This document shows positions 28,665-43,746 of a DNA stretch of 64,000 bases, one piece after another. The notes under the pieces are model-generated. The model saw nothing but the letters and a program-made list of their open reading frames with translations, ran no database searches and was not told the DNA's origin. This DNA comes from Pseudomonas fluvialis (GTDB lineage: Bacteria > Pseudomonadota > Gammaproteobacteria > Pseudomonadales > Pseudomonadaceae): positions 211,425 to 275,424 of the forward strand of contig NZ_NMQV01000005.1 of assembly GCF_002234375.1 (NCBI RefSeq), given 5' to 3'. Both the position numbers and the translations under genes were made by a program. Every line of letters begins with the position of its first letter. Within the stretch, counting starts at the first letter, position 1.

Positions 28665-28715
28665 TACACTGCGTTACCTGAGTGGCAGGCCCAACCTGCT
28701 ACTCATTCACTGTTT

Positions 28716-28791
28716 AGGCCAGTAGCTCAATTGGCAGAGCGGCGGTCTCCAAAACCGCAGGTTGGGGGTTCGATTCCCTCCTGGCCTGCCA
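28716..28791 (+). tRNA. tRNA-Trp (anticodon CCA)
   Basis: 76 bases with a full cloverleaf: acceptor stem AGGCCAG/CTGGCCT, D arm AGCTC..GAGC, anticodon loop TCTCCAAAA with CCA, T arm GGTTCGATTCC, encoded 3' CCA. It closely matches bacterial tRNA-Trp. Confidence 0.96.
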
Positions 28792-28797
28792 AACAGG

Positions 28798-28837
28798 CAA
28801 AGGCCCGGCATAGCACTATGTCGGGCCTTTGTGTTTT
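28798..28837 (+). terminator. Terminator of the tRNA-Trp transcript
   Basis: A long stem, CAAAGGCCCGGCATA / TATGTCGGGCCTTTG, with one G-T pair and a GCAC loop is followed by TGTTTT. It begins seven bases after the tRNA 3' end. Confidence 0.85.
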
Positions 28838-28967
28838 ACCCGACCCAGTCTTGCCCTGCACTCCCCGCACCAGCCATGCGTTGGCGTTGCCACGCCACGC
28901 ACACGCCGTACAACGTCTTCTGCCCGACACTTGCTATAGTGTGGAAAACCCAGTCAGGAGTGCAGCA

Positions 28968-29336
28968 ATGACCGATACCAGCCAAGAGCGCCGGCGCTTC
29001 CAGCGCATTGCCTTCGACGCCGCCACCGTGCTCAGCCAGGGGGATCATCAGTGGCCGGTAGAATTGCTCGACATCTCCCTGCGCGGCCTGCTGGTACGCT
29101 GCCCGGCAATCTGGCACGGCGATCCGCAACAACCCTTCACGGCACGCCTGAGCCTGGATGACGGCACCCAGGTACAGATGGACGTCCAGCTCACCCGCGA
29201 CAGCCAGGGACTACTGGGCTTCCTCTGCCAGCACATCGATCTCGAATCGATCAGCCACCTACGCCGCCTGGTCGAACTCAACCTGGGCGACAGCAGCCTG
29301 CTGGAACGCGAGCTCGCCGCCCTCAGCGACAACTGA
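28968..29336 (+). CDS. PilZ-domain c-di-GMP-binding protein
   Basis: 122 residues, essentially one PilZ domain. Both c-di-GMP motifs are present: the arginine cluster ERRRFQR near the N-terminus and LDISLRGLL (DxSxxG) at residues ~26-31. A helical tail follows ([22 protein letters not shown]). CAGGAG lies seven bases before the ATG. It is a single gene with its own terminator. The reader's output is unknown; the window also encodes a GGDEF/EAL protein. Confidence 0.93.
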
Positions 29337-29355
29337 CACTGCTGCCCACCTGCAC

Positions 29356-29379
29356 AGCGCCGCCTCCGGGCGGCGCTTT
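29356..29379 (+). terminator. Terminator after the PilZ gene
   Basis: A 9-bp stem, AGCGCCGCC / GGCGGCGCT, with TCCG loop and a short TTT tail. It separates the PilZ gene from the light-response promoter 20 bp further on. Confidence 0.75.
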
Positions 29380-29400
29380 GCTGTGTGCCCGCCATCTTTA

Positions 29401-29497
29401 TGTACAACTTTTCCGACCTAACTGTACAAAAGCATTGACTTGTACAACAGCACACCTAAGATGAACACAAGCTGTACAACAAATCAGATTTGTACAA
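29401..29497 (+). promoter_or_regulatory. Five TGTACAA boxes: probable LitR operator array
   Basis: TGTACAA occurs five times in 97 bases, all on the + strand, starting at 29401, 29423, 29441, 29473 and 29491, with spacings of 22, 18, 32 and 18. The core TGTACA is itself palindromic. LitR/CarH-type MerR regulators are known to bind TGTACA-like repeats, and the regulator gene is the second gene of the operon downstream. Autorepression with light-dependent relief is the expected logic (inference). Confidence 0.8.
29435..29462 (+). promoter_or_regulatory. Candidate promoter of the light-response operon
   Basis: TTGACT (29435-29440) and TAAGAT (29457-29462) are 16 bases apart. The third TGTACAA box lies directly in the spacer, so a bound regulator would block polymerase. 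Distance to the first ATG is about 54 bases, with a strong TAGGAGG ribosome site just before it. Confidence 0.65.
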
Positions 29498-29515
29498 CAC
29501 ATCCTAGGAGGCCCC

Positions 29516-30475
29516 ATGCATACGTCGATGCCCAAGCCCAAGCTCGCCATCAGCGCCTGCCTGCTCGGCGCCAACGTGCGCTTCAACGGCGGCCACAAGG
29601 AATCGCGCCTGTGCAGCCAGAGCCTGGCCGAACATTTCGAGTTTGTTCCGGTATGCCCGGAAGTCGGCATCGGTCTCGGCACCCCCCGCCAACCGATCCG
29701 CCTGGTCGGTGATGCGCAATCTCCGCGTGCCGTAGGGACCGTCCAGCGCGAGCTGGATGTCACTGATGCGCTGCGCGACTACGCCGAACGCATGGCCGGC
29801 GAACTCGACGATATCTGCGGGCATATCCTCATGCAGAGGTCGCCGTCCTGCGGCATGGAGCGGGTCAAGCTCTATCAGGACAATGGTTATCCGGCCGAGG
29901 GAGGGGCAGCCGGTATCTATGCAGCCCGTTTCATGGCGCTGCGCCCCGACCTGCCGGTAGAAGAAGACGGCCGCCTGAACGACCCGGTGCTGCGTGAGAA
30001 CTTCATCACCCGTGTATACGCCTATGCCGAATGGCAACGCTTGTGCCGAGCCGGCCTGAGCCGACGTGGCGTGCTGCAATTTCACGCACGCTACAAGTAC
30101 CAGCTGCTGGCCAATAATCCGCAGGCCTACAAAGAACTGGGCCGGCAACTGGCCAGCATTGCCCAGCATGACCTTGAGCAGTTTGCCGCCGACTATTTCA
30201 GCCGCCTGATACAGGCCTTGCGTCGTACCGCCAGCCGCGGCAGCCACAGCAATGTACTGCAGCACCTGTTCGGTTACCTCAAGCATGCACTGAGTGCCGA
30301 GGAGAAGCGCGATACCGTGCAACTCATTGAGCAGTACCGGGAAGGCATCGTCCCGCTGGTGGTTCCGCTGACTCTGCTCAAGTACCACTTCCGTCGCCAT
30401 CCGCATCCCTATGTGGCGCAGCAGGCTTATCTGCAGCCGCATCCGGAGCGCCTCAGCCTGCGCAACGCGCTCTAA
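29516..30475 (+). CDS. DUF523 plus DUF1722 (YbgA-like) protein
   Basis: 319 residues. The N-terminal DUF523 (residues ~8-150) has ISACLLGANVRFNGG, VPVCPEVGIGLGTPR and MQRSPSCGM, with several conserved cysteines that could hold a metal or iron-sulphur site. The C-terminal DUF1722 (residues ~190-305) contains FHARYKYQLLANNPQAY and GIVPLVVPLTLLKYHFRRHP. Members are often neighbours of photolyase genes. Recent work I recall ties DUF523-type proteins to tRNA thiolation or desulphuration chemistry, but I cannot confirm that for this one. First gene of the operon. Confidence 0.86.
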   Translation: MHTSMPKPKLAISACLLGANVRFNGGHKESRLCSQSLAEHFEFVPVCPEVGIGLGTPRQPIRLVGDAQSPRAVGTVQRELDVTDALRDYAERMAGELDDICGHILMQRSPSCGMERVKLYQDNGYPAEGGAAGIYAARFMALRPDLPVEEDGRLNDPVLRENFITRVYAYAEWQRLCRAGLSRRGVLQFHARYKYQLLANNPQAYKELGRQLASIAQHDLEQFAADYFSRLIQALRRTASRGSHSNVLQHLFGYLKHALSAEEKRDTVQLIEQYREGIVPLVVPLTLLKYHFRRHPHPYVAQQAYLQPHPERLSLRNAL

Positions 30476-30478
30476 ACC

Positions 30479-31408
30479 ATGCAGCCCGAAGATTACAGCA
30501 GCGCACTGGCTGCCGGCTGGTTGCCGATTCGTGACGTGGCCCGGCAGACCGGCGTCAATCCGGTCACCTTGCGCGCCTGGGAGCGACGCTATGGCCTGCT
30601 GCAACCACAGCGCACTGGCAAGGGCCACCGCCTGTATCCACCGGGCCAGGTGGAGCGCATCCGACAGATTCTCACCTGGCTGGGGCGCGGCGTCTCGGTC
30701 GGCCAGGTCAGCGAGTTGCTGCAACGCCAGGAACACCAGCCGCTGGCGCACAACCTCTGGCAGGAGCAGCGCCAGCAGCTTCTGCAAGCCATCGCCGAGC
30801 AAGCCGAGCGACGCCTGGATGACCTGTTCAACCAGGCGCTTACCCTCTATCCACCCGCTACCCTCTGCGCACAGCTGCTCCTGCCGTTACTCGACAGCCT
30901 GCAGCAACGCTGGCAAGGCCAGTTCGGCGCCGAGCTGGAGCGGGTGTTTTTTCACTCCTGGCTGCGCAGCAAACTCGGCGCGCGCCTCTATCACCAGAAT
31001 CGCCAGCTGGGCGGTGCCCCGCTGCTGCTGGTCAACCTCTCGCAGCGTCCGCTTGAGCCTGGCCTCTGGCTGACCGCCTGGCTATGTGTCAGCGCGGCCT
31101 GCCCCAGCGAGGTATTCGACTGGCCGCTGCCGGCCAATGAACTGCTGCTGGCCATTGAACACATGCAGCCGCGAGCCCTGCTGCTGTATGCCAGCGACAG
31201 CCTGCCGAGCCCCCTCCTGCAACAACAACTGCCCCGTTTGCTGGCCAGCAGTCCGGTGCCGCTCTTGCTCGCCGGCCCAGCCAGCCAGATTCATGCAGCG
31301 AGCCTGCAGGACCTGCCAGGCCTGCACCTGGCTGCCGGCCCGCTGGCCGCCCTGCACAGCCTGCAACATCTGGAACTGCTTGGCAGCGCACAAGGATCAC
31401 CCGCATGA
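30479..31408 (+). CDS. litR: MerR-family regulator, class II LitR-like
   Basis: 309 residues. The N-terminal MerR helix-turn-helix (residues ~14-80) reads LPIRDVARQTGVNPVTLRAWERRYGLL and GHRLYPPGQVERI. A four-helix cap domain follows, then a C-terminal part shaped like a cobalamin-binding domain. The expected lower-ligand motif DxHxxG is replaced by LSQRPLEPG, so B12 binding is unlikely. That matches class II LitR proteins of Pseudomonas, which I recall sense light through a separate LOV protein. No LOV gene is in the window. It overlaps phrB by four bases. The TGTACAA array upstream of the operon is the probable target. Confidence 0.82.
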   Translation: MQPEDYSSALAAGWLPIRDVARQTGVNPVTLRAWERRYGLLQPQRTGKGHRLYPPGQVERIRQILTWLGRGVSVGQVSELLQRQEHQPLAHNLWQEQRQQLLQAIAEQAERRLDDLFNQALTLYPPATLCAQLLLPLLDSLQQRWQGQFGAELERVFFHSWLRSKLGARLYHQNRQLGGAPLLLVNLSQRPLEPGLWLTAWLCVSAACPSEVFDWPLPANELLLAIEHMQPRALLLYASDSLPSPLLQQQLPRLLASSPVPLLLAGPASQIHAASLQDLPGLHLAAGPLAALHSLQHLELLGSAQGSPA

Positions 31409-32835
31409 CTCAGCTCTACTGGTTGCGCAATGACCTGCGCAGTACCGATAACACGGCACTCAACGCAGCCATGGCCAATGGCCCGACCGTAGCCCTGTAT
31501 GTGCTGAGCCCGGCCCAGTGGCAGGCGCACCACGACTCGCCGAACAAGGTCGATTTCTGGCTGCGTAACCTGCACGCACTGCGCGACGAGCTCAACGCCC
31601 TCGGCGTACCACTGCTGATTCGCCAGGTCGAGCACTGGCAGGACATTGGCGAGCTGCTCCTCACCCTCTGCCAGCAACTGCAGGTACGTGCCGTGCAGGT
31701 GAACGCCGAATACGGCGTCAATGAAACCCGTCGCGATCAGTCGGTAGCCGCCTGCCTGGCCCGCGCGGGCGTCGCCTGGCATAGCCATCTCGACCAGTTG
31801 CTGTTCGCCCCTGGCAGTCTGCTGACCCAGTCTGGACAGTGCTTCCAGGTGTACAGCCAGTTTCGCAAGGCCTGCTATCGACAACTCGCCCGTCACCTGC
31901 CAACGCCCCTGCCACGCCCGCGTGCGCAACCCGCGCTGCCCCTGGCCAGCGATCCGCTGCCCGAGCAGGTGAGTGGCTTTGCCCGCCCCACGGACAGTCT
32001 GCGCCAGCTCTGGCCGGCCGGCGAACAGCAAGCCCTGCAACGTCTGCAGCGCTTCGCCGAAGCGCGGCTGGAGGACTACGACCGCCAGCGCGACCTGCCG
32101 GCCCTGCCCGGTACCAGCCAGCTGTCGCCCTATCTGGCGGCCGGCGTACTGTCGCCCCGCCAATGCCTGCACGCGGCGCTGCAGCACAACCAGGGCGAGT
32201 TCGAAAGCGGCAACCCCGGGGTGGTCTGCTGGATCAACGAACTGCTCTGGCGCGAGTTCTACAAACATATCCTCGTCGCCCATCCCCGCCTCTCCATGGG
32301 CCGTGCCTTTCGCCACGAGACCGAGGCACTGGCCTGGCGCGATGCCCCACACCAGCTGCTGGCCTGGCAGGAAGGACGCACCGGTTTCCCGCTGATCGAT
32401 GCGGCCATGCAGCAGTTGCGCGCCACCGGCTGGATGCACAATCGCCTGCGCATGGTCGTCGCCATGTTCCTCTGCAAGAACCTGCTGATCGACTGGCGAC
32501 ATGGCGAGCGCTTCTTCATGGAGCAGCTAATCGACGGCGACCTGGCCGCCAACAACGGCGGTTGGCAGTGGAGCGCCTCGACCGGCACCGATGCCGTGCC
32601 CTACTTCCGCCTGTTCAACCCGGTTACCCAGTCGCAGCGCTTCGACCCGGACGGGACCTTCATTCGCCACTGGCTGCCGGCCCTGGCCGGTCTGAACAAG
32701 CGCGACATCCATGACCCAGCGCGGCTCGGCGGTCTGTTCGGGATAGCCGACTACCCACGTCCGCTGGTCGACCTGGCGGCCAGCCGCAGCCGCGCACTGG
32801 CCGCCTTCAAGGCCCTGGAGCGCAGCCATGAGTGA
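31405..32835 (+). CDS. phrB: Deoxyribodipyrimidine photolyase (class I CPD photolyase)
   Basis: 476 residues. Uses blue light and FADH- to split cyclobutane pyrimidine dimers. The N-terminal antenna-binding domain starts LYWLRNDLRSTDNTAL. The C-terminal FAD domain shows GRTGFPLIDAAMQQL, ATGWMHNRLRMV, LIDGDLAANNGGWQW and FNPVTQSQRFD, with the dimer-site and electron-transfer tryptophans present. The length is normal. The start overlaps the litR stop (ATGA); the stop overlaps the next gene by eight bases. Confidence 0.95.
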   Translation: MTQLYWLRNDLRSTDNTALNAAMANGPTVALYVLSPAQWQAHHDSPNKVDFWLRNLHALRDELNALGVPLLIRQVEHWQDIGELLLTLCQQLQVRAVQVNAEYGVNETRRDQSVAACLARAGVAWHSHLDQLLFAPGSLLTQSGQCFQVYSQFRKACYRQLARHLPTPLPRPRAQPALPLASDPLPEQVSGFARPTDSLRQLWPAGEQQALQRLQRFAEARLEDYDRQRDLPALPGTSQLSPYLAAGVLSPRQCLHAALQHNQGEFESGNPGVVCWINELLWREFYKHILVAHPRLSMGRAFRHETEALAWRDAPHQLLAWQEGRTGFPLIDAAMQQLRATGWMHNRLRMVVAMFLCKNLLIDWRHGERFFMEQLIDGDLAANNGGWQWSASTGTDAVPYFRLFNPVTQSQRFDPDGTFIRHWLPALAGLNKRDIHDPARLGGLFGIADYPRPLVDLAASRSRALAAFKALERSHE

Positions 32836-33253
32836 ATTCCTGCGCCACTTCGCCCAGCGTTTCGCCAGTCTGGATGCCGCACACTTGCACCAGCTCGCGG
32901 AGCTGTACAGCGAGGACATCCTGTTCCGCGATCCGCTGCACGAGATACAGGGCCTGGCGGCCCTGCAGCGCTACTTTGCCGAGCTGTACAGCAACGTGCG
33001 CGAACTACGCTTCGATGTCTACGCCTTCGACACCCTGCGCGAAGGCGAAGGCTACCTGCGCTGGACCATGAGCTACCGCCACCCGCGGCTGGCAGGTGGT
33101 GCGCTGATCCGCGTGGACGGTTGCTCGCACCTGTTGTGGCGAGATGGCCGGGTCTACCGCCATCGCGACTATTTCGATGCCGGCGCCCTGCTGTATGAAC
33201 ACCTGCCACTACTCGGGCGGGTGATTGCCTGGTTGAAACGGAGGTTGGCATGA
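32828..33253 (+). CDS. NTF2/SnoaL-like small protein
   Basis: 141 residues with the cone-fold pattern of nuclear transport factor 2-like proteins: a helix FLRHFAQRFASLDAAHLHQL, LYSEDILFRDPLHEIQG, then beta strands ending in DGCSHLLWRDGRVYRHRDYFDAG. Members of this type are common in the LitR/ChrR light and singlet-oxygen gene sets. A ligand or enzyme role is unproven. It overlaps phrB by eight and the SDR gene by four bases. Confidence 0.85.
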   Translation: MSEFLRHFAQRFASLDAAHLHQLAELYSEDILFRDPLHEIQGLAALQRYFAELYSNVRELRFDVYAFDTLREGEGYLRWTMSYRHPRLAGGALIRVDGCSHLLWRDGRVYRHRDYFDAGALLYEHLPLLGRVIAWLKRRLA

Positions 33254-34026
33254 GCTGGACGGAACAACGGATCTGGCTGACCGGTGCCAGCAGTGGTATC
33301 GGTTTGGCACTGGCCGAACAGTTGCTCGAGCGGGGCGCACGCCTGGCCCTCAGCGCGCGACGTGAGGCGCCGCTGCAGGCCCTTGCCGAACGTTATCCCG
33401 GACAGGTGCTGGTCCTGCCGGGCGACCTCGGTCAGGAGAGCCAGGTACAGGCCATCGCCCAGGCCATCGATGCCCACTGGGGCGCACTGGATATGCTGCT
33501 GTGCAATGCCGGCAGTTGCGAATATGTCGAAGCGGGCGCTTTCCAGGCAGCCAGTATCGAACGCATGCTGCGTAGCAACCTGCTGTCGGTGGCCTATGCC
33601 ATCGAGGCGGGCCTGCCGCTGCTGCGCCGCGGCCGACAGGCGCAACTGGTCGCGGTGGGCAGTTCGGTCACCTACCTGCCGCTGCCCCGCGCAGAAGCCT
33701 ACGGCTGCTCCAAGGCCGGCCTGCGCTACCTGCTGCAAAGCCTACGCATTGCCCTGGCCAGTGAGGACATCGCAGTCACGCTGATCAGCCCCGGCTTTGT
33801 CGACACCCCGCTGACCCAGCGTAACGATTTCCCCATGCCGATGCGCTGGACAGCCGAGCGTGCCGCCAGCGAGATCATCACGCGCCTGCCGGCGCGCCCG
33901 CTGGAAATCCGTTTCCCCGGCCCCTTCATCAGCCTGCTGCGCCTGCTGGGCAGCCTGCCGCAACGTTGGCAGCTGGCCATTGGCCGCCGCCTGGCGCGCC
34001 CCGTTCACAAGGAATCACGACCATGA
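33250..34026 (+). CDS. Short-chain dehydrogenase/reductase
   Basis: 258 residues of classical SDR type. The cofactor motif LTGASSGIGLALAEQL is at residues ~10-25, NAG at LLCNAGSC, the catalytic serine lies in VAVGSSVTYLP, and Tyr/Lys in YGCSKAG. Arginine after the second strand (LSARREA) favours NADPH. Likely substrates are fatty-acid-derived ketones or alcohols, judged only from the lipid-modifying neighbours. It overlaps the next gene as ATGA. Confidence 0.9.
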   Translation: MSWTEQRIWLTGASSGIGLALAEQLLERGARLALSARREAPLQALAERYPGQVLVLPGDLGQESQVQAIAQAIDAHWGALDMLLCNAGSCEYVEAGAFQAASIERMLRSNLLSVAYAIEAGLPLLRRGRQAQLVAVGSSVTYLPLPRAEAYGCSKAGLRYLLQSLRIALASEDIAVTLISPGFVDTPLTQRNDFPMPMRWTAERAASEIITRLPARPLEIRFPGPFISLLRLLGSLPQRWQLAIGRRLARPVHKESRP

Positions 34027-35270
34027 AGATCGCCATCATCGGCAGCGGCATTGCCGGCCTGACCTGCGCCTACCTGCTCAATCGCCGCCATGCCATCACC
34101 CTCTTCGAAGCCGAGTCCTGGGTAGGCGGGCATACGCATACCGTACCGGTCAGCCTGGATGGCCAGCACTACGCCATCGACACCGGCTTTATCGTCTTCA
34201 ATGACTGGACCTATCCAAACTTCATCCACCTGCTGCGCCAGCTTGGCGTGCGCTACCAGCCCACCGAGATGAGCTTTTCCGTACACGACCCACGTAGCGG
34301 CGTGGAGTACAACGGCAATAACCTCAACAGCCTGTTCGCCCAGCGCAGCAACCTCCTGTCACCGCGCTTCTGGGGCATGCTGCAGGATATCTTGCGCTTC
34401 AACCGCGAAGCGCTGCGTGACCTGGAGGAAGGGCGCATCGCCGCCGACCTGACCCTGGGCCAATACCTGCAGCAGAATGGCTATGGGCAGCGTTTCATCG
34501 ACCACTACATCGTGCCGATGGGCGCAGCGATCTGGTCGATGTCGCTGGAAGGCATGCTCGGCTTCCCCCTGCAATTCTTCGTGCGGTTCTTCCGCAACCA
34601 CGGGCTGCTCTCGGTGAGTGATCGCCCTCAGTGGTATGTCATCGAGGGCGGCTCCAGTGCCTACGTGGAACCGCTGACCCGCGACTTCCTGCAGCACATC
34701 CGCAGCAACTGCCCGGTACAGCGCATCGAACGCGATGCCAGCGGCGTCACCGTACACAGCGCAGCGGGTAGCGAACGCTTCGACAAGGTAGTACTGGCCT
34801 GTCACAGCGATCAGGCGCTGGCCCTGCTGGCAAAACCCAGCGAAGCCGAACAACAGATTCTCGGAGCCCTGCCCTACGCCGAGAACGATGTGGTGTTGCA
34901 CACCGACACCCGCCTGCTGCCGCGCCGCCCGCTGGCCTGGGCCAGCTGGAACTACCGGCTGGGCGGACCACGCCAGCAGCCGGCGGCGGTCACCTACAAC
35001 ATGAACATCCTGCAGGGCATCAAGGCCCCGCAGACCTTCTGCGTCAGCCTCAACCAGAGCGAGGCGATCGCACCCGACAAGGTGCTGGCGCGCTTTCGCT
35101 ATGCCCATCCACAGTACAGCCTGGCCGGCATGGCCGCCCAGGCACGCTGGGAAGAAATCCATGGTGTGCAGCACAGCTACTATTGCGGCGCCTACTGGGC
35201 CAACGGTTTCCACGAGGACGGCGTGGTCAGCGCGCTGCGCGTGGCCAGCGCCTTCGGGGAGCAACTGTGA
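34023..35270 (+). CDS. FAD-dependent amine-oxidase-like oxidoreductase
   Basis: 415 residues. The N-terminal FAD motif IAIIGSGIAGLTCAYLL is followed by FEAESWVGGHTHTV, and FIVFNDWTYPNFIHLLRQLGV is typical of this COG2907 group. The C-terminal part has SYYCGAYWANGFHEDGV. In known singlet-oxygen and light gene sets this protein pairs with DUF1365 and a Cfa-like methyltransferase, and related genes act in furan fatty acid formation. The start at 34023 overlaps the SDR stop; the longer frame from 33966 is within the SDR gene. Confidence 0.88.
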   Translation: MKIAIIGSGIAGLTCAYLLNRRHAITLFEAESWVGGHTHTVPVSLDGQHYAIDTGFIVFNDWTYPNFIHLLRQLGVRYQPTEMSFSVHDPRSGVEYNGNNLNSLFAQRSNLLSPRFWGMLQDILRFNREALRDLEEGRIAADLTLGQYLQQNGYGQRFIDHYIVPMGAAIWSMSLEGMLGFPLQFFVRFFRNHGLLSVSDRPQWYVIEGGSSAYVEPLTRDFLQHIRSNCPVQRIERDASGVTVHSAAGSERFDKVVLACHSDQALALLAKPSEAEQQILGALPYAENDVVLHTDTRLLPRRPLAWASWNYRLGGPRQQPAAVTYNMNILQGIKAPQTFCVSLNQSEAIAPDKVLARFRYAHPQYSLAGMAAQARWEEIHGVQHSYYCGAYWANGFHEDGVVSALRVASAFGEQL

Positions 35271-36079
35271 GCGCGCTACAGCACAGCGCGCTGTACCTCG
35301 GCCAGGTTGGGCACCGGCGTTTTGCTCCGCGTGCGCACGCCTTCAACTATGCCATCGGCCTGTTCTACCTCGACCTCGACGAACTGCCGCAGCTCCTGCA
35401 ACTCAGTCGCTGCCTGGGCTCGCAGCGCTGGCGGCCACTGGCGTTCCGCGAGCAGGACTACCTGCCGGGCCTGACCGGCAGCGGCCTGTCACTGCGTGAA
35501 GCGGTGCGCCAGCGTCTGCACGAGGCGCTCGGCCGCGATATCGACGGCCCGGTCCGTCTGCTCACCCAGCTGCGCTGCTGGGGACTGAGTTTCAACCCGG
35601 CCAGTTTTTTCTACTGTTTCGATCGCCAGGAACAGTTGCAGGCGATCCTCGTCGAGGTCAGCAATACCCCCTGGCGCGAACGCTATCACTACGTGCTACC
35701 CGCCCAGGGCGACGGCCCGCAGTTCTTCGCGGTGGCGAAGTGTTTCCATGTCTCGCCCTACCTGCCCCGCGAGGTGGATTACCACATGCACTTCAGCCCA
35801 CCGGGCCAGCGCCTGGGCATTCACATGGCCGACTGGCAGGGCCCGCTCAAGCTGTTCGATGCCAGCCTCAGCCTGCGCCGCGAGCCACTGGACCAGCGCA
35901 GCCTGCATCGCTACCTGCGGCATTTTCCGTGGATGACCGGCAAGGCCGTGCTAGGCATCTACTGGCAGGCCTTGCGCCTGCTGCTCAAACGTACCCCCAT
36001 CCATGACCATCAGGCGGCCCTGGGCCAGTTCCAGGTCGCTCAGTTTCGTCACAAGGAGTCAGCCGATGAAAACCTCTAG
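35267..36079 (+). CDS. DUF1365 protein
   Basis: 270 residues from a GTG overlapping the previous TGA, with GGGGAG five bases upstream. The DUF1365 pattern is clear: ALYLGQVGHRRFAPRAHAFNYAI at the N-terminus, SFNPASFFYCFD in the middle and VAKCFHVSPYLP towards the C-terminal half. Its role is unknown; it is always seen near the flavin oxidoreductase and the Cfa-like enzyme. It overlaps the latter by 14 bases. Confidence 0.88.
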   Translation: MSALQHSALYLGQVGHRRFAPRAHAFNYAIGLFYLDLDELPQLLQLSRCLGSQRWRPLAFREQDYLPGLTGSGLSLREAVRQRLHEALGRDIDGPVRLLTQLRCWGLSFNPASFFYCFDRQEQLQAILVEVSNTPWRERYHYVLPAQGDGPQFFAVAKCFHVSPYLPREVDYHMHFSPPGQRLGIHMADWQGPLKLFDASLSLRREPLDQRSLHRYLRHFPWMTGKAVLGIYWQALRLLLKRTPIHDHQAALGQFQVAQFRHKESADENL

Positions 36080-37337
36080 CCTCACCGGCAAAGCGCGCCT
36101 GTTCAGCCACACCGGCCTGGCCAATGGCCTGCTGCGCAGCGCGGTATTGCGCCAGCTTGGCCAACTGCGCCATGGCCAGCTGCGCGTCATCGAACAGGGC
36201 GAAAGCATGGAGTTCGGCCCGGGTGGGCACGGTCCGCATGCCGAGATCGAAATTATCGACAGCGCTGCCTGGGGCCTGATCGCCGGCAACGGCTCGATCG
36301 GTGCCGGCGAGGCCTATATCCATGGTTACTGGTGCAGCCCCGACCTGACCGCCGTGGTGCGCCTGTTCGTCGCCAATCTCGACGTACTCGACGCCATGGA
36401 GCGTGGCCTGGCCAGCCTCGGCCGACCGCTGGTCAAGGCCCTGCACTGGCTCAACCGCAATACCCGCAGCGGCGCGCGCCGCAATATTGCCGCGCACTAT
36501 GACCTGGGTAATGCCCTGTTCGAGCAGTTCCTTGATCCGACCATGATGTATTCGGCGGCGATGTTCCCGCCCGGTTGCGACGACCTGGAGCAGGCGCAAC
36601 TACACAAGCTGGAGCGCATCTGCCAGAAGCTCGACCTCAAGCCCAGCGATCACTTGCTGGAAATCGGCACCGGCTGGGGCAGCATGGCCATCTATGCCGC
36701 CAGCCACTACGGCTGCCGGGTGACCACCACCACCCTGTCGCGCGAGCAGTTTGCCTACACCCAGGCGCGCATCGAGGCTCAGGGCCTGCAGGATCGTATC
36801 ACCCTGCTGTTAGAGGACTACCGCGACCTGCGTGGCGAATACGACAAGCTGGTGTCGATCGAGATGATCGAAGCGGTGGGTCATCGTTTCCTGCCCACCT
36901 ATTTCCGCCAGTGCGCAAGCCTGCTCAAACCCGACGGGTTGATGCTGCTGCAGGCCATCACCATCCGCGAGCAGCGCTATGAAATGGCCCGCCGCTCGGT
37001 GGACTTCATCCAGCGTTACATCTTCCCCGGCGGCGCCCTGCCCTCGGTACACAAGATGCTGGAAATCGTTGGCCGCGACACGGACCTCAACCTGCACCAC
37101 CTGGAAGATTTCGGCCTGCATTACGCCCGCACCCTGCGCCACTGGCACGAACGCCTGCGCCAGGCGCGCGGCAAACTGGCCGAACTGGGCTACGACGAGT
37201 ACTTCTTCCGTCTCTGGGAGTTTTACCTGTGCTATTGCGAAGGCGGCTTCCTCGAGCGCAGCATCGGCACCGCGCACCTGCTGCTGGCCAAGCCGCAGGC
37301 CCGGCCATTGCCGCTCCTGGGAAAGTTCGATGAATAA
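36066..37337 (+). CDS. Cyclopropane-fatty-acyl-phospholipid synthase-like methyltransferase
   Basis: 423 residues. SAM-dependent transfer of a one-carbon unit to unsaturated acyl chains of membrane phospholipids. Motifs: NIAAHYDLGNALFEQFLD, MMYSAAMFP, the SAM loop LLEIGTGWGSMAIYAA, TTTLSREQFAYTQARIEAQGL and IEMIEAVGHRF. The operon context suggests a UfaM/Cfa-type enzyme that modifies lipids in response to light. AAGGAG seven bases before 36066 supports this start. A separate housekeeping cfa gene is not in the window. Confidence 0.88.
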   Translation: MKTSSLTGKARLFSHTGLANGLLRSAVLRQLGQLRHGQLRVIEQGESMEFGPGGHGPHAEIEIIDSAAWGLIAGNGSIGAGEAYIHGYWCSPDLTAVVRLFVANLDVLDAMERGLASLGRPLVKALHWLNRNTRSGARRNIAAHYDLGNALFEQFLDPTMMYSAAMFPPGCDDLEQAQLHKLERICQKLDLKPSDHLLEIGTGWGSMAIYAASHYGCRVTTTTLSREQFAYTQARIEAQGLQDRITLLLEDYRDLRGEYDKLVSIEMIEAVGHRFLPTYFRQCASLLKPDGLMLLQAITIREQRYEMARRSVDFIQRYIFPGGALPSVHKMLEIVGRDTDLNLHHLEDFGLHYARTLRHWHERLRQARGKLAELGYDEYFFRLWEFYLCYCEGGFLERSIGTAHLLLAKPQARPLPLLGKFDE

Positions 37338-37839
37338 ACTGCTGCTCAACGCCCTGCTGTTTCAGCTCGGCTGGTTCCTCTGCGTATTCGCCGCCCAGCA
37401 GCCCTGGTTGCTGCTCGGCGTGCCGTTGCTGCTGGCCATCCACCTGCGCTGGGTGGCCGGCTGGCACGCCGAAGGCCGTCTACTGGTCAGCGTGCTGCTG
37501 AGCGGCGCGGCACTGGACAGTACCTTGCTGCAAATGGGCGTGCTCGACTTTGCTGGCGACAGCCTGCTGCTGCCACTCTGGCTGGCCACCCTGTGGCTGC
37601 TGTTCGGCACCACGCTCAATCATTGCCTGGCCTGGAGCGCACGGCCCTGGTGGCGTGCCAGCCTGCTCGGCGCATGTGGCGGGCCGTTGTCCTACTACGC
37701 TGGCGCGCAACTGGCCGGTGTCGGGATGCCGCTGGGCCTGTGGCCCAGCTTGCTGATCCTCGCCGGCTGCTGGGCCGTCTTGCTACCGCTGCTGCATGGT
37801 TTCGCCAGCCTGCAACGGCAACGTCTGGCCAGTCAGTGA
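37330..37839 (+). CDS. DUF2878 integral membrane protein
   Basis: 169 residues with about five hydrophobic segments (residues ~5-40, 50-70, 77-97, 105-125, 135-157). LLNALLFQLGWFLCVFAA and WPSLLILAGCWAVLLPLL mark the DUF2878 family. Its ATG overlaps the methyltransferase gene by eight bases. It is the last gene of the light operon and converges on the nos cluster, stopping 15 bp from the tatE stop. Function unknown. Confidence 0.85.
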   Translation: MNKLLLNALLFQLGWFLCVFAAQQPWLLLGVPLLLAIHLRWVAGWHAEGRLLVSVLLSGAALDSTLLQMGVLDFAGDSLLLPLWLATLWLLFGTTLNHCLAWSARPWWRASLLGACGGPLSYYAGAQLAGVGMPLGLWPSLLILAGCWAVLLPLLHGFASLQRQRLASQ

Positions 37840-38028: not shown

Positions 38029-38622
38029 TTAATGGTGCGCGTGGGCGTCATGGCCGGCTTCGGCAGCCTGGCTGTCGGTTTGCTGGCTCATGGGCGCATG
38101 CCCATGTCCCATGGCGGCGCCCTGTTGCAGCAACTCAGCCGTGATGTCGTCGATGCGCAGCACCTGACCGCCCTGCATCTGCGCGAACTGCTCGGCAGCC
38201 GCCTGCTCGGCAAAGGAAGCCAGCGGCACACCCATCGCCCCCTGCAGGTTGGGCGCTACCACGTAGTAAGCCGTGCTGGCGTCGATCAGGTGCTCATCAT
38301 CGGGAGCCTGCCAGTCGCTGCGCGCCATGTCATGCACAAACATTTTTGCCGTGGCCAGGCGGTTTTCCGGCTGCAGCCACCAGCCAAACATTTCCGCACT
38401 GGAACAGAACTTGCGCACCGCGCCACGCTTTTCCACCGCCTGCCCTTTGGCTCCGGGGAACTCTTCGATGATCATGCCGCAGACATGGCATTCATCACTG
38501 TCATGGATGGCTACCGGCACGATCTCGCGTACCTCTTCGGCTTTTTCCCCACACCCGGCCAGCAGGCTGGCACCCAACAGACACGCGGCCAGCGCCGCAC
38601 TTTTTGCCAGATTGATTTGCAT
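38029..38622 (-). CDS. nosL: NosL copper chaperone lipoprotein
   Basis: 197 residues. Lipoprotein signal with lipobox LLAGC, so it is anchored in the outer membrane facing the periplasm. The copper-binding motif CHVCGM follows (residues ~45-50), and the C-terminus is histidine-rich (HGHAPM, HDAHAHH). Delivers Cu(I) to NosDFY/NosZ. Two adjacent ATGs exist (38628, 38622); AAGGTG sits six bases before the second, which is preferred. Confidence 0.93.
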   Translation of the reverse strand: MQINLAKSAALAACLLGASLLAGCGEKAEEVREIVPVAIHDSDECHVCGMIIEEFPGAKGQAVEKRGAVRKFCSSAEMFGWWLQPENRLATAKMFVHDMARSDWQAPDDEHLIDASTAYYVVAPNLQGAMGVPLASFAEQAAAEQFAQMQGGQVLRIDDITAELLQQGAAMGHGHAPMSQQTDSQAAEAGHDAHAHH

Positions 38623-38648
38623 CGTCATCACCTTACACCCAGGAGGAT

Positions 38649-39479
38649 TCACAATTCGCGGCGGCGGAAGGCCAGAAACGCCAGGCCCAGCGCCAGCCCC
38701 GCCCAACCCAGCAAGCACAGCCAGAGCAGACCGTTGCCCACCGGCAGGTCACTGCCCAAAGCCATCACCCCAACCATGCTGCTGGCCCCCTCGAAACCGG
38801 CCAGGTTGATCAGGCGGAACACATCGGTGGGGTTGAGCAGCAGCAGCCAGGGCAGCAGTTCGGGATTGAAGCGCCCTTCGCTGAGCACCAGGATCGCCAG
38901 CAGGGCCAGGTCGAAGACCAGCACAAAGACGAACCACACGCCCAGCGCCAGCCCGGCTGCGCTGGATTTTTCCTGCACCAGGCTGCTCAGCAGGTAAGCC
39001 AGGGCGATGAACACCAGGCCCAGCAGCGTCGACGACAGCATGAAGCGGGCAAAGGCCCAGACCAGCATGCCCAGCTCGACATCGGCGACCAGCACGGCGA
39101 TGGCCAGCGCTGCGCAGCCGAAACCGATCAGCGTAGCCAGACCGAGGATCAGCCCGTGGCCGATGAACTTGCCTAGCAGGATCTGCGCACGACTCAGTGG
39201 GTAGGTGAGCAGCAGCAGCAGCGTACCGCCCTCCTCCTCGCCGACGATGGCGTCATAGGCCAGCAGCAAGGCAATCAACGGCATGAGGAAGGTCGCCAGG
39301 CTGGATAGGCTGGCAATGGTCGCCGGAATCGAGGTGAACCCCACCTGCCCGGAGGCGGCTGCGCCAAGCCAGGCGATACCGGCGGCGAGCATGGCGAACA
39401 ACAGGCTGATGGCCAGCAACCAGCGATTGCGCAGGCCGTCGCTGAGTTCCTTGCGGGCGATATTCCAGATCTGATTCAT
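38649..39479 (-). CDS. nosY: NosY ABC transporter permease
   Basis: 276 residues, six hydrophobic segments. The N-terminus WNIARKELSDGLRNRWLL and PLIALLLAYDAIVGEEEGGTL are typical of NosY. With NosF and NosD it forms the complex that receives copper from NosL and loads NosZ. The ATG at 39479 shares a base with the nosF stop (TGATG); GGGGAG precedes it. A GTG three bases earlier is the alternative. Confidence 0.94.
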   Translation of the reverse strand: MNQIWNIARKELSDGLRNRWLLAISLLFAMLAAGIAWLGAAASGQVGFTSIPATIASLSSLATFLMPLIALLLAYDAIVGEEEGGTLLLLLTYPLSRAQILLGKFIGHGLILGLATLIGFGCAALAIAVLVADVELGMLVWAFARFMLSSTLLGLVFIALAYLLSSLVQEKSSAAGLALGVWFVFVLVFDLALLAILVLSEGRFNPELLPWLLLLNPTDVFRLINLAGFEGASSMVGVMALGSDLPVGNGLLWLCLLGWAGLALGLAFLAFRRREL

Positions 39480-40402
39480 CACGACTCCCCGGCAGGCGCG
39501 GTGCTTTCCGCACGCTGCATGTAGTAGCAGTACAGGTCCTCCAGGGACGGCTGCTGGATTTCCACGTCCGCGACCTGCCCTTCGCCCAGCAACTGACGCA
39601 ACAGGCCCAGCTTGTGACCATTGTGCGCCGCCACCTCAAGCAGGCCTTCAGCACTGCTGCTGGCACTATGCCCGGCCTCGCTGAACCGTGCCTGCCAGTG
39701 CTGGGCCTGGCTCAGCCCGCTGGCGCGGATCAGCGTGGGCAAACCGGCCGCGGCACGCAGGCTGGGCAGGTCGCCCACCGCCTGCAGGCGTCCGTTGGCG
39801 AGAATTGCCGCACGGTCGATATAGCGCTCCACCCCCGGCAGTACGTGGGAGCAGAGGATGATGCTGGTGCCCTGGCTGCGTAGTTGCTCGATCAACTGGT
39901 AGAGCGCCTGGGTGGCGATCGGGTCGAGGCCCACGGTGGGTTCGTCGAGCAGCAACAGACGGGGTGTGCCCAGCAAAGCCTGCGCCAGCCCGAGGCGCTG
40001 ACGCATGCCCTTGGAATAGGTTTTCACCCGACGCCGCGCCGCGCCGGCCAGCCCCACCTGCTCGAGCAACTGATCGACCTGCCGCTGCTCCGCCCCCTTG
40101 AGACGGGCAAAGTGACTGAGGGTTTCCCGACCGCTTAGCTGCGGGTAGAACGTCACGTTCTCCGGCAGGTAGCCAAGCAGACGGCGTACCTGGGCATCGC
40201 CCGGCGCGCCACCGAGCACCCGTACGCTGCCTTCGCTGGCACTGAGCAGGCCGAGAATCAGCTTCATGGTGGTGGTCTTGCCCGCACCGTTGTGGCCGAA
40301 CAGCCCCAGCACTTCACCCTCACCGAGGGTCAGGTCAAGATCGTGCAGCACCTGCATGCTGCCGTAGCGCTGCTGGACGCGCTGGATTTCCACTGCATTC
40401 AT
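39479..40402 (-). CDS. nosF: NosF ABC transporter ATPase
   Basis: 307 residues. Walker [12 protein letters not shown], signature [17 protein letters not shown], Walker [13 protein letters not shown] and H-loop CSHVL are all intact. It powers the NosDFY complex. The start at 40402 ([14 protein letters not shown]) overlaps the nosD stop by four bases; a longer frame to 40570 lies within nosD and is rejected. Confidence 0.95.
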
Positions 40403-41706
40403 GGTCGGGTTTCCTTGGCTGCCGGCAGCAGTTTTTCCGTCGGCATACGCATCAGGGGGTGGCTGTCCTGCACGCCCGGCGACTTCATCACCGGGAAGGC
40501 ACGCTGCACCCAGCGCAGCATTTCGATACTCGGGCTGTTCATCAGCAGACGCACCTGCGGGTACATCCACAGCAGACGGTCGACATTGTCATTGGGCTCA
40601 TAGGGCACGTCGCCCAAGCCATCGCCGTTACGATCCCAGCCCAGGTAGTCACTCCAGTAATTGCCACGCCCATCAATCGACCACTCCTGGGTACGCATGG
40701 CGACGTATTTCACCTGCTGCTGGTTGTCGATAAAGCTGTTGAGGGTGATGCGGTTGCCTTCCGAGCCGGCGGTCAGGTGCACACCCAGGCCACTGCGTTG
40801 GAAATGATTGCCACGAATATCGTTGAACAGCGTGTTGTAGATAAACAGCGCCTTGCCCTCGGCGCCACTGATCATGCTGTCGCCGTCGGTAGAGCCGCTT
40901 TGCACATCGCTGACGTAGTTGTCGTAAATGCGCGAATAGGTGATGTAGTTCATCAGGATGCCGTAGTTCTGGTCGAACTCCGAGCGATTGCCAACCACCG
41001 TCAGGTTGCGGCTGGACATCAAGGCGAAACCGGTCCGGGTACGCCGGGTGATGTTGCTGATCACCGTGTTGTCATTGGCGAACATGTAGTGCACGCCGTA
41101 ACGCAGGTCTTCCAGCAGATTGTTTTCCAGGTGGTTACCGTGGGACGTGTCGATATAAATGCCGTCCCGCGCCTCGCGTACGGTATTGCCGAGAATCCGC
41201 GCGCCTTTCACGGAAAACAGGTGGATGCCGTTACCACGATCCTGCGAGCGCACGCTGGCGTCGCCGCTAATCTGGTTATCCAGCACCTGCACGTCACGAT
41301 TACCATCCAGCCAGATGCCAAAACCACGGCCGCGTATCTGGTTGCCCCGTATCACGCTGCCATCGGCACCTCGGCCGACGAAGATGGCCGAGTCCATCTG
41401 GGTGAGGTCATGGCCCCAGTTTTCCAGGGTACAGCCCTGTACGCGCACCTGCGGCGCCTTGATCAACAGGGCGTGCCCTTTTCCCTGGGCATCAATGCGC
41501 GCGCCTGGCGCACACTCAAGGCTCAGACTGCTCTCGATATGGAACTGTCCGAAATAATCGCCGGCAGGCAGCTGCCAGCGATCATCACCCAGCGCCTGCA
41601 GCGGCAGCTCGGTGATCGCGCGCGATTCGGCCAAGGCCGACGCGCTGAAAAAAAGAGGCATGCACAACGCCAGCAGGCGCAGGCGAGTCGCCGAGAAAAG
41701 CTGCAC
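40399..41706 (-). CDS. nosD: NosD periplasmic copper-maturation protein
   Basis: 435 residues with a signal peptide ([16 protein letters not shown]). The body is a right-handed parallel beta-helix of CASH/NosD type: [38 protein letters not shown], and [19 protein letters not shown]. It binds NosZ and passes on copper. No ATG fits; a GTG at 41706 with AGGA seven bases before gives a clean signal peptide. Confidence 0.92.
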
Positions 41707-41731
41707 GAAATTGTCCTTAGCTAGCCAGAGA

Positions 41732-41767
41732 ATTGTTCCTGCCCGTCTGCTGACTGGCAGGAACAAT
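41732..41767. other. Perfect 12-bp stem-loop between nosZ and nosD
   Basis: ATTGTTCCTGCC (41732-41743) pairs with GGCAGGAACAAT (41756-41767) around a 12-base loop. There is no T run on either side, so it is not a standard terminator. It sits 60 bp after nosZ and 26 bp before nosD within a presumed single transcript. A role as mRNA 3'-end stabiliser or partial terminator would favour nosZ over nosDFYL. Confidence 0.75.
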
Positions 41768-41826
41768 AGACACTAAGCCTCCCGGCTGCCCCGTCGCACA
41801 AGCAACGGGACATCCACCGGCAGGAC

Positions 41827-43746
41827 TCAGGCCGGCTCTACCAGCATGCGGCCAACCATCTCCATGTGCAGGGCATGGCAGAACCAGCTGCAGTAGTACC
41901 AGTGCAGGCCGGGCTTGTCGGCCACGAAGGTCACCGAGGCCGTCTGCTGCGGGCTGATTTCCATGCTCACACCATGGTTGACCATGACAAAGCCGTGCGA
42001 CACGTCTTCGATCTGGTCAATGTTGGTGATGACCACGGTGACTTCATCGCCTTGCTTGACGGTGAACTCCTGCACGCCATAGCTGGGTGCCATGGAGGTC
42101 ATGTAGACACGCACCTTGTTGCCGTCACGGATAACCTTGTTGTCGGTCTCCAGGTTGATGCCGTCCTTCTTGGCCATGGCGGTAGTGCCGGCAAAGAAGG
42201 GATCGTTGCGCTCCCAGATCTTCTTCGGCTTGATCTGGTCACGGCGCGCCAGGATGCAGTCATGCGGCTCGGCATAGGTCGGGCCGTCGTGCACCAGCTT
42301 CATTTCCTCACCGGAAATATCGATCAGCTGGTCATTCTCCGGGTGCAGCGGGCCGACTTGCAGGAAGCGGTCCTTGGAGAATTTGCACAGGGCAATCAGC
42401 CACTGGCCATCAGCCTCGCTGGTTTCGCACAACGACGCATGGATGTGCCCCGGCTGATAGTGCACATCGAGTTTCTGCTTGATGTAGTTGACCTTCTCAC
42501 CCTTGTAGGCACGCACGGCGTCAGCCATGTTCCACTTCACCACCTGGCTGTCGATGAACAGCGTGGTGTAGGCATTGCCGCGGCCGTCGAAGGTGGTATG
42601 CAGCGGGCCGAGGCCCAGCTCCGGCTCGGCGGCGATGGTATCGCGCGGATCCTTGAGCTTGCCGGCAAACAGGTCAGGCAGCTTGGCGATCTCGATCATC
42701 GAGACGGTCGGCGACAGCTTGCCGTTGGCGATGAAGTACCTGCCATCCGAAGAGGTATTGCAGCCGTGCGGGTTCTTCGGCACCGGGATGTAGCGGGTGA
42801 ATTCGCTGTCCTGGTCGCCTTTCTTGCGACCATCCAGTACCGGCACCTTGGAGTCGCCCAGAGTAATGAACTTGCCGGCCTTGACCGCTTTCTCGGCAGC
42901 GTGGATATCGAATACCACAACCCAGTCACGCTCGTTGCGCATCATGCCGCCGAGGTCGTAGGCCTTTTCCGAGTTGTAACAGGTCGCTGCAGTGAAACGC
43001 CCGGTGTAGTCGGCATCGGTGTTGTCGAGGTTACCGTCGACGATGATCTGGAAGGCCACTTCCATTTTCTCGGCGTCGATGACGTTGTACATGGTGTAGC
43101 TGTTTTCATGCTGCAGGTCGAAGATCTTGCCGTCGTTCGGGTGCGGGATGACGAATTCGGCGTTGGCGAACACGTACTTGGTGTAGGGCACCTTCTGCAG
43201 GCGCAGACCGTGAATGGCCTGGCAGTTGGGGATAGTGATCATCTTGTCGCACTTCATGATATCCAGGCGGATACGTGCAACGCGGGTGTTGGCCTTGTCG
43301 TTGATGAACACATACTTGCCGTCGTACTTACCGTCGGTCATCGAGATGTGCGGGTGGTGGCAGTCGCCGTTGAGGAACTTGGCGCTCTCGCCCATGATCG
43401 CCCGGCTTTCGTTGGTGATGCCCCAGCCGGTAGCCGAATCGACGTTGAATACCGGAATACGCATCAGCTCGCGCATCGACGGGATACCCAGCACGCGTAC
43501 TTCGCCCTGGTGGCCACCGCTCCAGAAACCGATGTAGTCATCCAGTTCACCGGGGGCCACATGGTATTTCAGCTTGGCATCCTTGACCGCTGCCGCCCAG
43601 GATTCGCGGCTCATCACCGCCGAACCCAGACCCGCAGCCCCCACCAGGGCAGCACCGGCACCGGTCATGGCTGTGGCGCCGAGGAAGCCACGGCGACTCA
43701 GGCCGGTTTTTTCCACCTCGTTCTCGGGTTTCTTGCTGTTAGACAT
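41827..43746 (-). CDS. nosZ: Nitrous-oxide reductase, TAT-dependent (clade I)
   Basis: 639 residues. Reduces N2O to N2 in the periplasm. A twin-arginine signal, LSRRGFLG, is at residues ~16-23. The CuZ histidines begin at SGGHQGEV and CHHPHIS; the C-terminal cupredoxin domain binds CuA with CSWFCHALHMEM. All expected motifs are present and the length is normal. AAGGAG precedes the ATG. The Tat signal marks clade I, in line with the presence of nosR. Confidence 0.97.
   Translation of the reverse strand: MSNSKKPENEVEKTGLSRRGFLGATAMTGAGAALVGAAGLGSAVMSRESWAAAVKDAKLKYHVAPGELDDYIGFWSGGHQGEVRVLGIPSMRELMRIPVFNVDSATGWGITNESRAIMGESAKFLNGDCHHPHISMTDGKYDGKYVFINDKANTRVARIRLDIMKCDKMITIPNCQAIHGLRLQKVPYTKYVFANAEFVIPHPNDGKIFDLQHENSYTMYNVIDAEKMEVAFQIIVDGNLDNTDADYTGRFTAATCYNSEKAYDLGGMMRNERDWVVVFDIHAAEKAVKAGKFITLGDSKVPVLDGRKKGDQDSEFTRYIPVPKNPHGCNTSSDGRYFIANGKLSPTVSMIEIAKLPDLFAGKLKDPRDTIAAEPELGLGPLHTTFDGRGNAYTTLFIDSQVVKWNMADAVRAYKGEKVNYIKQKLDVHYQPGHIHASLCETSEADGQWLIALCKFSKDRFLQVGPLHPENDQLIDISGEEMKLVHDGPTYAEPHDCILARRDQIKPKKIWERNDPFFAGTTAMAKKDGINLETDNKVIRDGNKVRVYMTSMAPSYGVQEFTVKQGDEVTVVITNIDQIEDVSHGFVMVNHGVSMEISPQQTASVTFVADKPGLHWYYCSWFCHALHMEMVGRMLVEPA

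Follow-up and report, generated by a model that had tools for sequence, protein, structure and literature searches.

The closest described relative of the promoter studied here is P6650, the light-inducible promoter of the pmlR1/phrB operon of Pseudomonas mendocina NBRC 14162, whose nine genes include those of a photo-lyase, a LitR (PmlR1), a short-chain dehydrogenase, a flavin adenine dinucleotide (FAD) oxidoreductase, and UfaM (PMC9758184). P6650 reads TTGACT-N16-TATGAT, and its transcription begins 48 bp upstream of the ATG; of its two sites, Site 1 covers the -35 hexamer and Site 2 falls between the start and the ATG. PmlR2 gives one broad footprint on it, from -54 to +37, and changing both Site 2 boxes abolishes PmlR2 binding; in run-off assays PmlR2 represses and LOV acts as an antirepressor. 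RNA polymerase is blocked there by a class II LitR, which a short LOV protein takes off once activated by blue light (PMC9758184). We analyzed a stretch of 64,000 nucleotides from Pseudomonas fluvialis (the window; genome G000, 3.29 Mb in 69 contigs) in which an array of TGTACAA boxes precedes an operon. We propose that this array consists of two 24-base sites at which a class II LitR very probably represses transcription in the dark, until a blue-light-activated short LOV protein releases it. Our own results comprise the two sites, the promoter hexamers with their degree of conservation, the order of the genes, and the finding that the genome also encodes a further LitR and a short LOV protein.

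Box array, promoter, and symmetry of the sites

On the + strand, TGTACAA starts at positions 29401, 29423, 29441, 29473, and 29491, with steps of 22, 18, 32, and 18 bp, in agreement with an earlier note that had reported five heptamers in 29401-29497. The word matches 9 times on both strands of the window versus a shuffled mean of 1.72, and 9 matches were reached in 0 of 100 shuffles; the array holds 7 of the 9 because boxes 3 and 5 read TTGTACAA, which matches both strands. The same note had suggested cooperative sets of two or three boxes; an array of five equivalent direct repeats used in such sets is not supported: boxes 2+3 and boxes 4+5 share an equal 18-bp step and each form TGTACA-N12-TGTACA (24 bases), with box 1 alone, and the true units are two 24-bp dyads and one orphan box rather than single heptamers. 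Site 1 (boxes 2 and 3; 29423-29446, + strand) covers the -35 hexamer, reaches into the spacer, and corresponds to the footprinted Site 1 of P6650; Site 2 (boxes 4 and 5; 29473-29496, + strand) lies in the predicted leader, at +6 to +29, and corresponds to the footprinted Site 2. Without mismatch, TRTACA-N12-TRTACA occurs in the genome at these two sites only, and the backward control gave 0 matches.

The putative -35 hexamer TTGACT (29435-29440, + strand) and -10 hexamer TAAGAT (29457-29462, + strand) are separated by a 16-base spacer whose 5' end is taken up by box 3, and the coordinates agree with the earlier placement of that box inside the spacer. We aligned promoters from 80 loci around a relative of the first operon gene, rudS, together with the window (81 in all), of which 65 could be anchored to both sites; the anchoring scored the boxes and TTGACT, leaving the -10 hexamer unused. 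TTGACT is found in 61 of the 65 promoters, which were anchored partly on TTGACT itself, TATGAT also in 61, and the complete TTGACT-N16-TATGAT in 57, while TAAGAT occurs in the window promoter alone. The promoter assignment is thus supported by conservation, and TTGACT-N16-TAAGAT fits the sigma70 promoter of the P6650 type. By analogy with the 48 bp before the ATG in P. mendocina, transcription is predicted to start at 29468 (+ strand), ahead of a ribosome-binding site, AGGAGG (29506-29511, + strand), read from the sequence, and of the ATG at 29516. As in P6650, Site 1 lies over the -35 hexamer and Site 2 between the predicted start and the ATG, each in the form TRTACA-N12-TGTAYA. Placed by the same analogy, Site 1 would extend from -45 to -22, and box 1 would fall outside the -54 to +37 footprint.

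This architecture is widespread among relatives. With the four-box layout defined as two exact sites with 20 to 40 bases between them, it was found in 122 of the 298 genomes of the family sample, representing 7 of 19 genera. The starts of Site 1 and Site 2 are offset by 50 bp in 50 of the 65 aligned promoters, by 49 bp in 11, and by 48, 51, or 53 bp in 4. Two genomes, G255 and G270, contain two four-box arrays each instead of one. Box 1 (29401-29407, + strand), the orphan TGTACAA, precedes Site 1 by 22 bp, which would place it at about -67 to -61 relative to the predicted start. It follows another pattern: none of the 64 other aligned promoters has an exact counterpart 7 to 59 bp upstream of Site 1, 6 of them have a one-mismatch word at other distances, and a further box 10 to 24 bp before an exact Site 1 was found in 2 of 398 genomes of the genus, counted irrespective of whether they carry Site 1, namely, this one (22 bp) and one other (13 bp). 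Box 1 thus appears to be local, as far as the sampled genomes reach, and would be at most a weak extra contact.

Because TGTACA is its own reverse complement, direct heptamers are one of two possible readings, and only variation among the boxes can separate a direct from an inverted repeat. Among the 130 left boxes of the 65 promoters, 15 show the change of G2 to A (TATACA) and none that of C5 to T (TGTATA); among the 130 right boxes, 7 show C5 to T and none G2 to A. Moreover, TGTACG occurs twice in left boxes and its mirror, CGTACA, twice in right boxes. Along the RudS tree, at least 11 left G2-to-A and at least 5 right C5-to-T changes were counted, and none of the opposite kind. Since G2-to-A is confined to left boxes and C5-to-T to right boxes, each site is an inverted repeat, most likely bound by a symmetric head-to-head pair of DNA-binding domains, as judged from this variation. 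The PplR1 consensus of Pseudomonas putida, T(G/A)TACA-N12-TGTA(C/T)A as quoted in PMC9758184, has the same mirror symmetry. In the text of PMC9758184, words beginning with "inverted," "direct repeat," or "palindrom" occur 0 times; the comparative evidence for the inverted repeat is added here, and we do not claim to be the first to publish this reading. By eye, the upstream site of a P. putida-group locus (L118), ~117 bp ahead of the RudS match, forms a perfect palindrome in which arms of 16 bases flank the core TATACA-N12-TGTATA.

The second LitR, the short LOV protein, and the proposed light switch

The genome encodes a second class II LitR (LitR2, 316 amino acids [aa]) and a short LOV protein (148 aa) on the same contig, ~2 kb apart and beside folM and folE (locus L057, G000 C45:101001-108500). 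The frame that separates them resembles, by eye, an acyl-CoA dehydrogenase. A second class II LitR with a nearby short LOV gene is likewise part of the P6650 system. The best Protein Data Bank (PDB) match of the short LOV protein is a Pseudomonas short LOV, 7r5n (E value, 2.7e-71), and the stretch DCRFLQ is present. A one-mismatch search of the genome for the operator gave 16 places (L036 to L051), and some reading frame of 100 aa or more, which by itself does not establish coding, covers 15 of them; one of the 16, L036, lies inside a 666-aa frame running off the locus. Three of the 15 frame-covered places (L047 to L049) sit in the LitR2-folM region, where near-matches are located ahead of folM and next to LitR2; among them is L049, TGTACA-N12-GGTATA, the word named before folM in PMC9758184. 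With two mismatches allowed, 160 and 168 matches were obtained on the two strands versus 83 and 81 in the backward control.

In our model, a class II LitR bound in the dark at Site 1, over the -35 hexamer, and at Site 2, past the predicted start, would block RNA polymerase; under blue light, the activated short LOV protein would pull LitR off and free the promoter. The simple occlusion by a LitR-like MerR protein predicted in the earlier note is supported in part: occlusion has been shown in vitro on the P. mendocina homologue, but the protein assayed there was PmlR2, encoded elsewhere together with its LOV partner, and not the regulator of the operon itself (PMC9758184).

That the regulator encoded in the operon (LitR1), rather than the LOV-linked LitR2, is the main repressor and thereby autoregulates its own operon is possible but, in our view, rather unlikely. 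The LitR1 gene (30479-31408, + strand) lies in the operon, the operator consensus was defined with PplR1 of P. putida (as cited in PMC9758184), and LitR1 and LitR2 share, by eye, the stretch TGVNPVTLRAWERRYGL. In P. mendocina, however, PmlR2 was shown to bind, to repress, and to respond to LOV, whereas PmlR1 binding is not reported in the sections of PMC9758184 consulted. LitR1 matches PF13411 and PF02607, and PF02310 is not listed up to an E value of 0.001; it thus has the MerR helix-turn-helix and the four-helix B12-binding_2 domain of a class II LitR and no match to a second B12-binding domain. DxHxxG is the B12-binding motif. It is absent from both LitR proteins of the genome, setting LitR1 apart from class I LitR/CarH proteins with their C-terminal motif, and 1 of 74 orthologues carries it; LitR1 resembles CarH in fold alone. 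The best NCBIfam match of LitR1 is MlrA (NF011617), whose score of 90.2 bits is below the cutoff of 417 for an MlrA equivalog. A third, weaker relative of the DNA-binding domain of the regulator was observed at G000 C23:5543-5836 (34% identity, query residues 15 to 116).

Several points weigh against the proposed LitR-LOV switch. Binding, repression, and light-dependent release in this genome are carried over from P. mendocina, where gel shift and BIAcore data conflict as to the effect of light-activated LOV on the repressor, release or a supershift (PMC9758184). The exact four-box pattern was not matched in 176 of the 298 family genomes, and the counts leave out 16 of the 81 promoters, for which anchoring to both sites failed. 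Box 1 is unaccounted for by two sites. Finally, the LitR2-adjacent near-match L047, CATACA-N12-TATACA (one mismatch), has G2-to-A in both boxes and, if it is a real site, contradicts strict mirror symmetry.

Spacer covariation and competing explanations

The two arms of the Site 2 spacer covary. In a set of 101 distinct Site 2 sequences, the four outermost spacer pairs hold 213 Watson-Crick cells versus 144.5 expected when the right arms are dealt anew (z = 7.9; 0 of 2000 shuffles, which keep relatedness among the sequences), and this covariation is found at register 0 only. The same test shows nothing for the Site 1 spacer, which is held by the -35 hexamer. In 39 pairs of nearest relatives, we counted 15 pairing-preserving double changes at register 0 versus 0 to 6 at six slid registers; when all double changes are counted, register 0 has 34 and the others have 8 to 35. 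At least one row, L126, was anchored on the wrong downstream word in this test and in the folding and G-U tests below. No general covariation was found at positions 1 to 5 of the outer flanks of Site 2, with position 4 mildly raised (25 versus 19.0), and several P. putida-group promoters have, by eye, long outer arms.

We consider it improbable that selection maintains Site 2 chiefly for an RNA hairpin that it would form at the start of the transcript. The covariation of its arms would fit such a hairpin, as would its folding, which is stabler than that of shuffles (mean z = -1.33, n = 79, versus 0.01 for Site 1, n = 65), and the fourth spacer pair, taken by itself, has more G-U cells than expected (12 versus 6.8). 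With the four pairs pooled, however, G-U (52 versus 65.2 expected) and A-C (57 versus 72.3) are both depleted; a like depletion is what DNA symmetry predicts, which favors a DNA-level symmetry of the operator over an RNA hairpin. The window is, moreover, a poor example of a hairpin, its Site 2 being ordinary in folding (z = 0.24) as is the entire leader (z = 0.16). Site 2 alone binds PmlR2 as DNA (PMC9758184), and one upstream Site 1 (that of L118) also has extended symmetry. A nontranscribed control set from the LitR2/folM region gave five TGTACA-N12-GGTATA words in 30 loci, too few for use. An RNA role may nevertheless exist alongside the DNA symmetry. We put forward, as a tentative idea that may well prove wrong, that class II LitR operators are head-to-head dyads with recognition extending into the 12-base spacer, the arms of Site 2 co-evolving in register across Pseudomonas, and that the transcribed Site 2 may double as a 5' stem-loop. 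If true, one element would serve both as a DNA switch and as a message structure.

A CarH-type operator, with tandem direct repeats under a B12-bound head-to-tail repressor, is very improbable. The repeats of CarH follow an 11-bp step (PMC9304148), whereas those of the window follow 22, 18, 32, and 18 bp. The sole 11-bp word, at 29462, is found in 3 of the 65 promoters, and LitR1 has PF02607 without a listed PF02310, both LitR proteins lacking DxHxxG. CarH-like 11-bp repeats of the form nnnnTnnACAn were also tried as a candidate and rejected: of the 260 box positions in the 65 promoters, 4 have TnnACA at a distance of 11 bp upstream.

MerR activators act at promoters with a spacer of 19 to 20 bp. 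Although the regulator has a MerR-type DNA-binding domain, classical activation through untwisting of a long spacer is very improbable, as the window spacer is 16 bp, the center of the Site 1 dyad (29434/29435) coincides with an edge of the -35 hexamer and lies outside the spacer, and the P6650 run-off assays gave repression (PMC9758184).

Operon content and relation to known light-responsive systems

Behind the array lie nine closely spaced genes, all on the + strand, with LitR1 second, in line with the earlier description of a nine-gene operon encoding a LitR-like regulator. The first gene (29516-30475) is of the RudS type (2-thiouracil desulfurase plus DUF1722), from the tRNA 4-thiouridine desulfidase family (PMC11417400). 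After LitR1 come the deoxyribodipyrimidine photolyase gene phrB (31405-32835) and genes for a SnoaL-like protein (32828-33253), a short-chain dehydrogenase (33250-34026), an FAD-dependent amine-oxidase-like oxidoreductase (34023-35270), a DUF1365 protein (35267-36079), a cyclopropane-synthase-like methyltransferase in the place of UfaM (36066-37337), and a DUF2878 protein, ninth and last (37333-37839); the starts of the oxidoreductase, DUF1365, and methyltransferase genes were set by eye, and that of the last gene is approximate. At Rfam gathering scores, the region 28700-29900 contains only a tRNA gene (RF00005), at 28716-28788, between a glyA-like gene (by eye) and a small gene ahead of the operon. 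Downstream of the operon, the frames at 38029-43746 on the - strand resemble, by eye, a nitrous-oxide reductase (nos) cluster.

Among known systems, CarH and class I LitR share with this locus a related repressor fold, an operator overlapping the -35 hexamer, and repression in the dark, but differ by their 11-bp direct repeats and B12 photochemistry, neither of which was found in the window (PMC9304148). In Escherichia coli, MlrA recognizes TGTACA-type halves 12 bases apart, described as a palindrome (PMC9662190), and BluR has GTACA half-sites over the -35 hexamer and spacer, drawn by the authors both as a direct and as an inverted repeat, and is released by a blue-light BLUF protein (PMC3509220). 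Both act on other targets, and the light input of BluR is BLUF and not LOV. The PplR1 operators of P. putida KT2440, by the consensus quoted in PMC9758184, have their form in common with the window sites.

P6650 comes closest, with TTGACT-N16, two TGTACA-N12-TGTACA in the same places, and a second LitR and a short LOV protein encoded elsewhere. The genes named in the text of PMC9758184 follow the same order in the window (litR, phrB, short-chain dehydrogenase, FAD oxidoreductase, and ufaM), in a comparison that left out the sequences of four hypothetical P. mendocina proteins and matched ufaM only as a cyclopropane-synthase-like methyltransferase. The window differs by TAAGAT in place of TATGAT and by the extra upstream box at 29401; the text of PMC9758184 names no such box for P6650, and the comparison was made without the upstream sequence of P6650. 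The window promoter thus has a homologue whose mechanism is known from in vitro work, and its arrangement has already been published for a relative; our study adds one extra box and the comparative evidence for an inverted repeat. What looked like a striking repeat array is a conserved and largely explained light switch, which places a gene of the tRNA 4-thiouridine desulfidase family and a photolyase gene under shared predicted blue-light control in another genome. The sharper, mirror-symmetric definition of the operator, TRTACA-N12-TGTAYA, may be used to find class II LitR targets and to tell them apart from the direct repeats of the CarH type.
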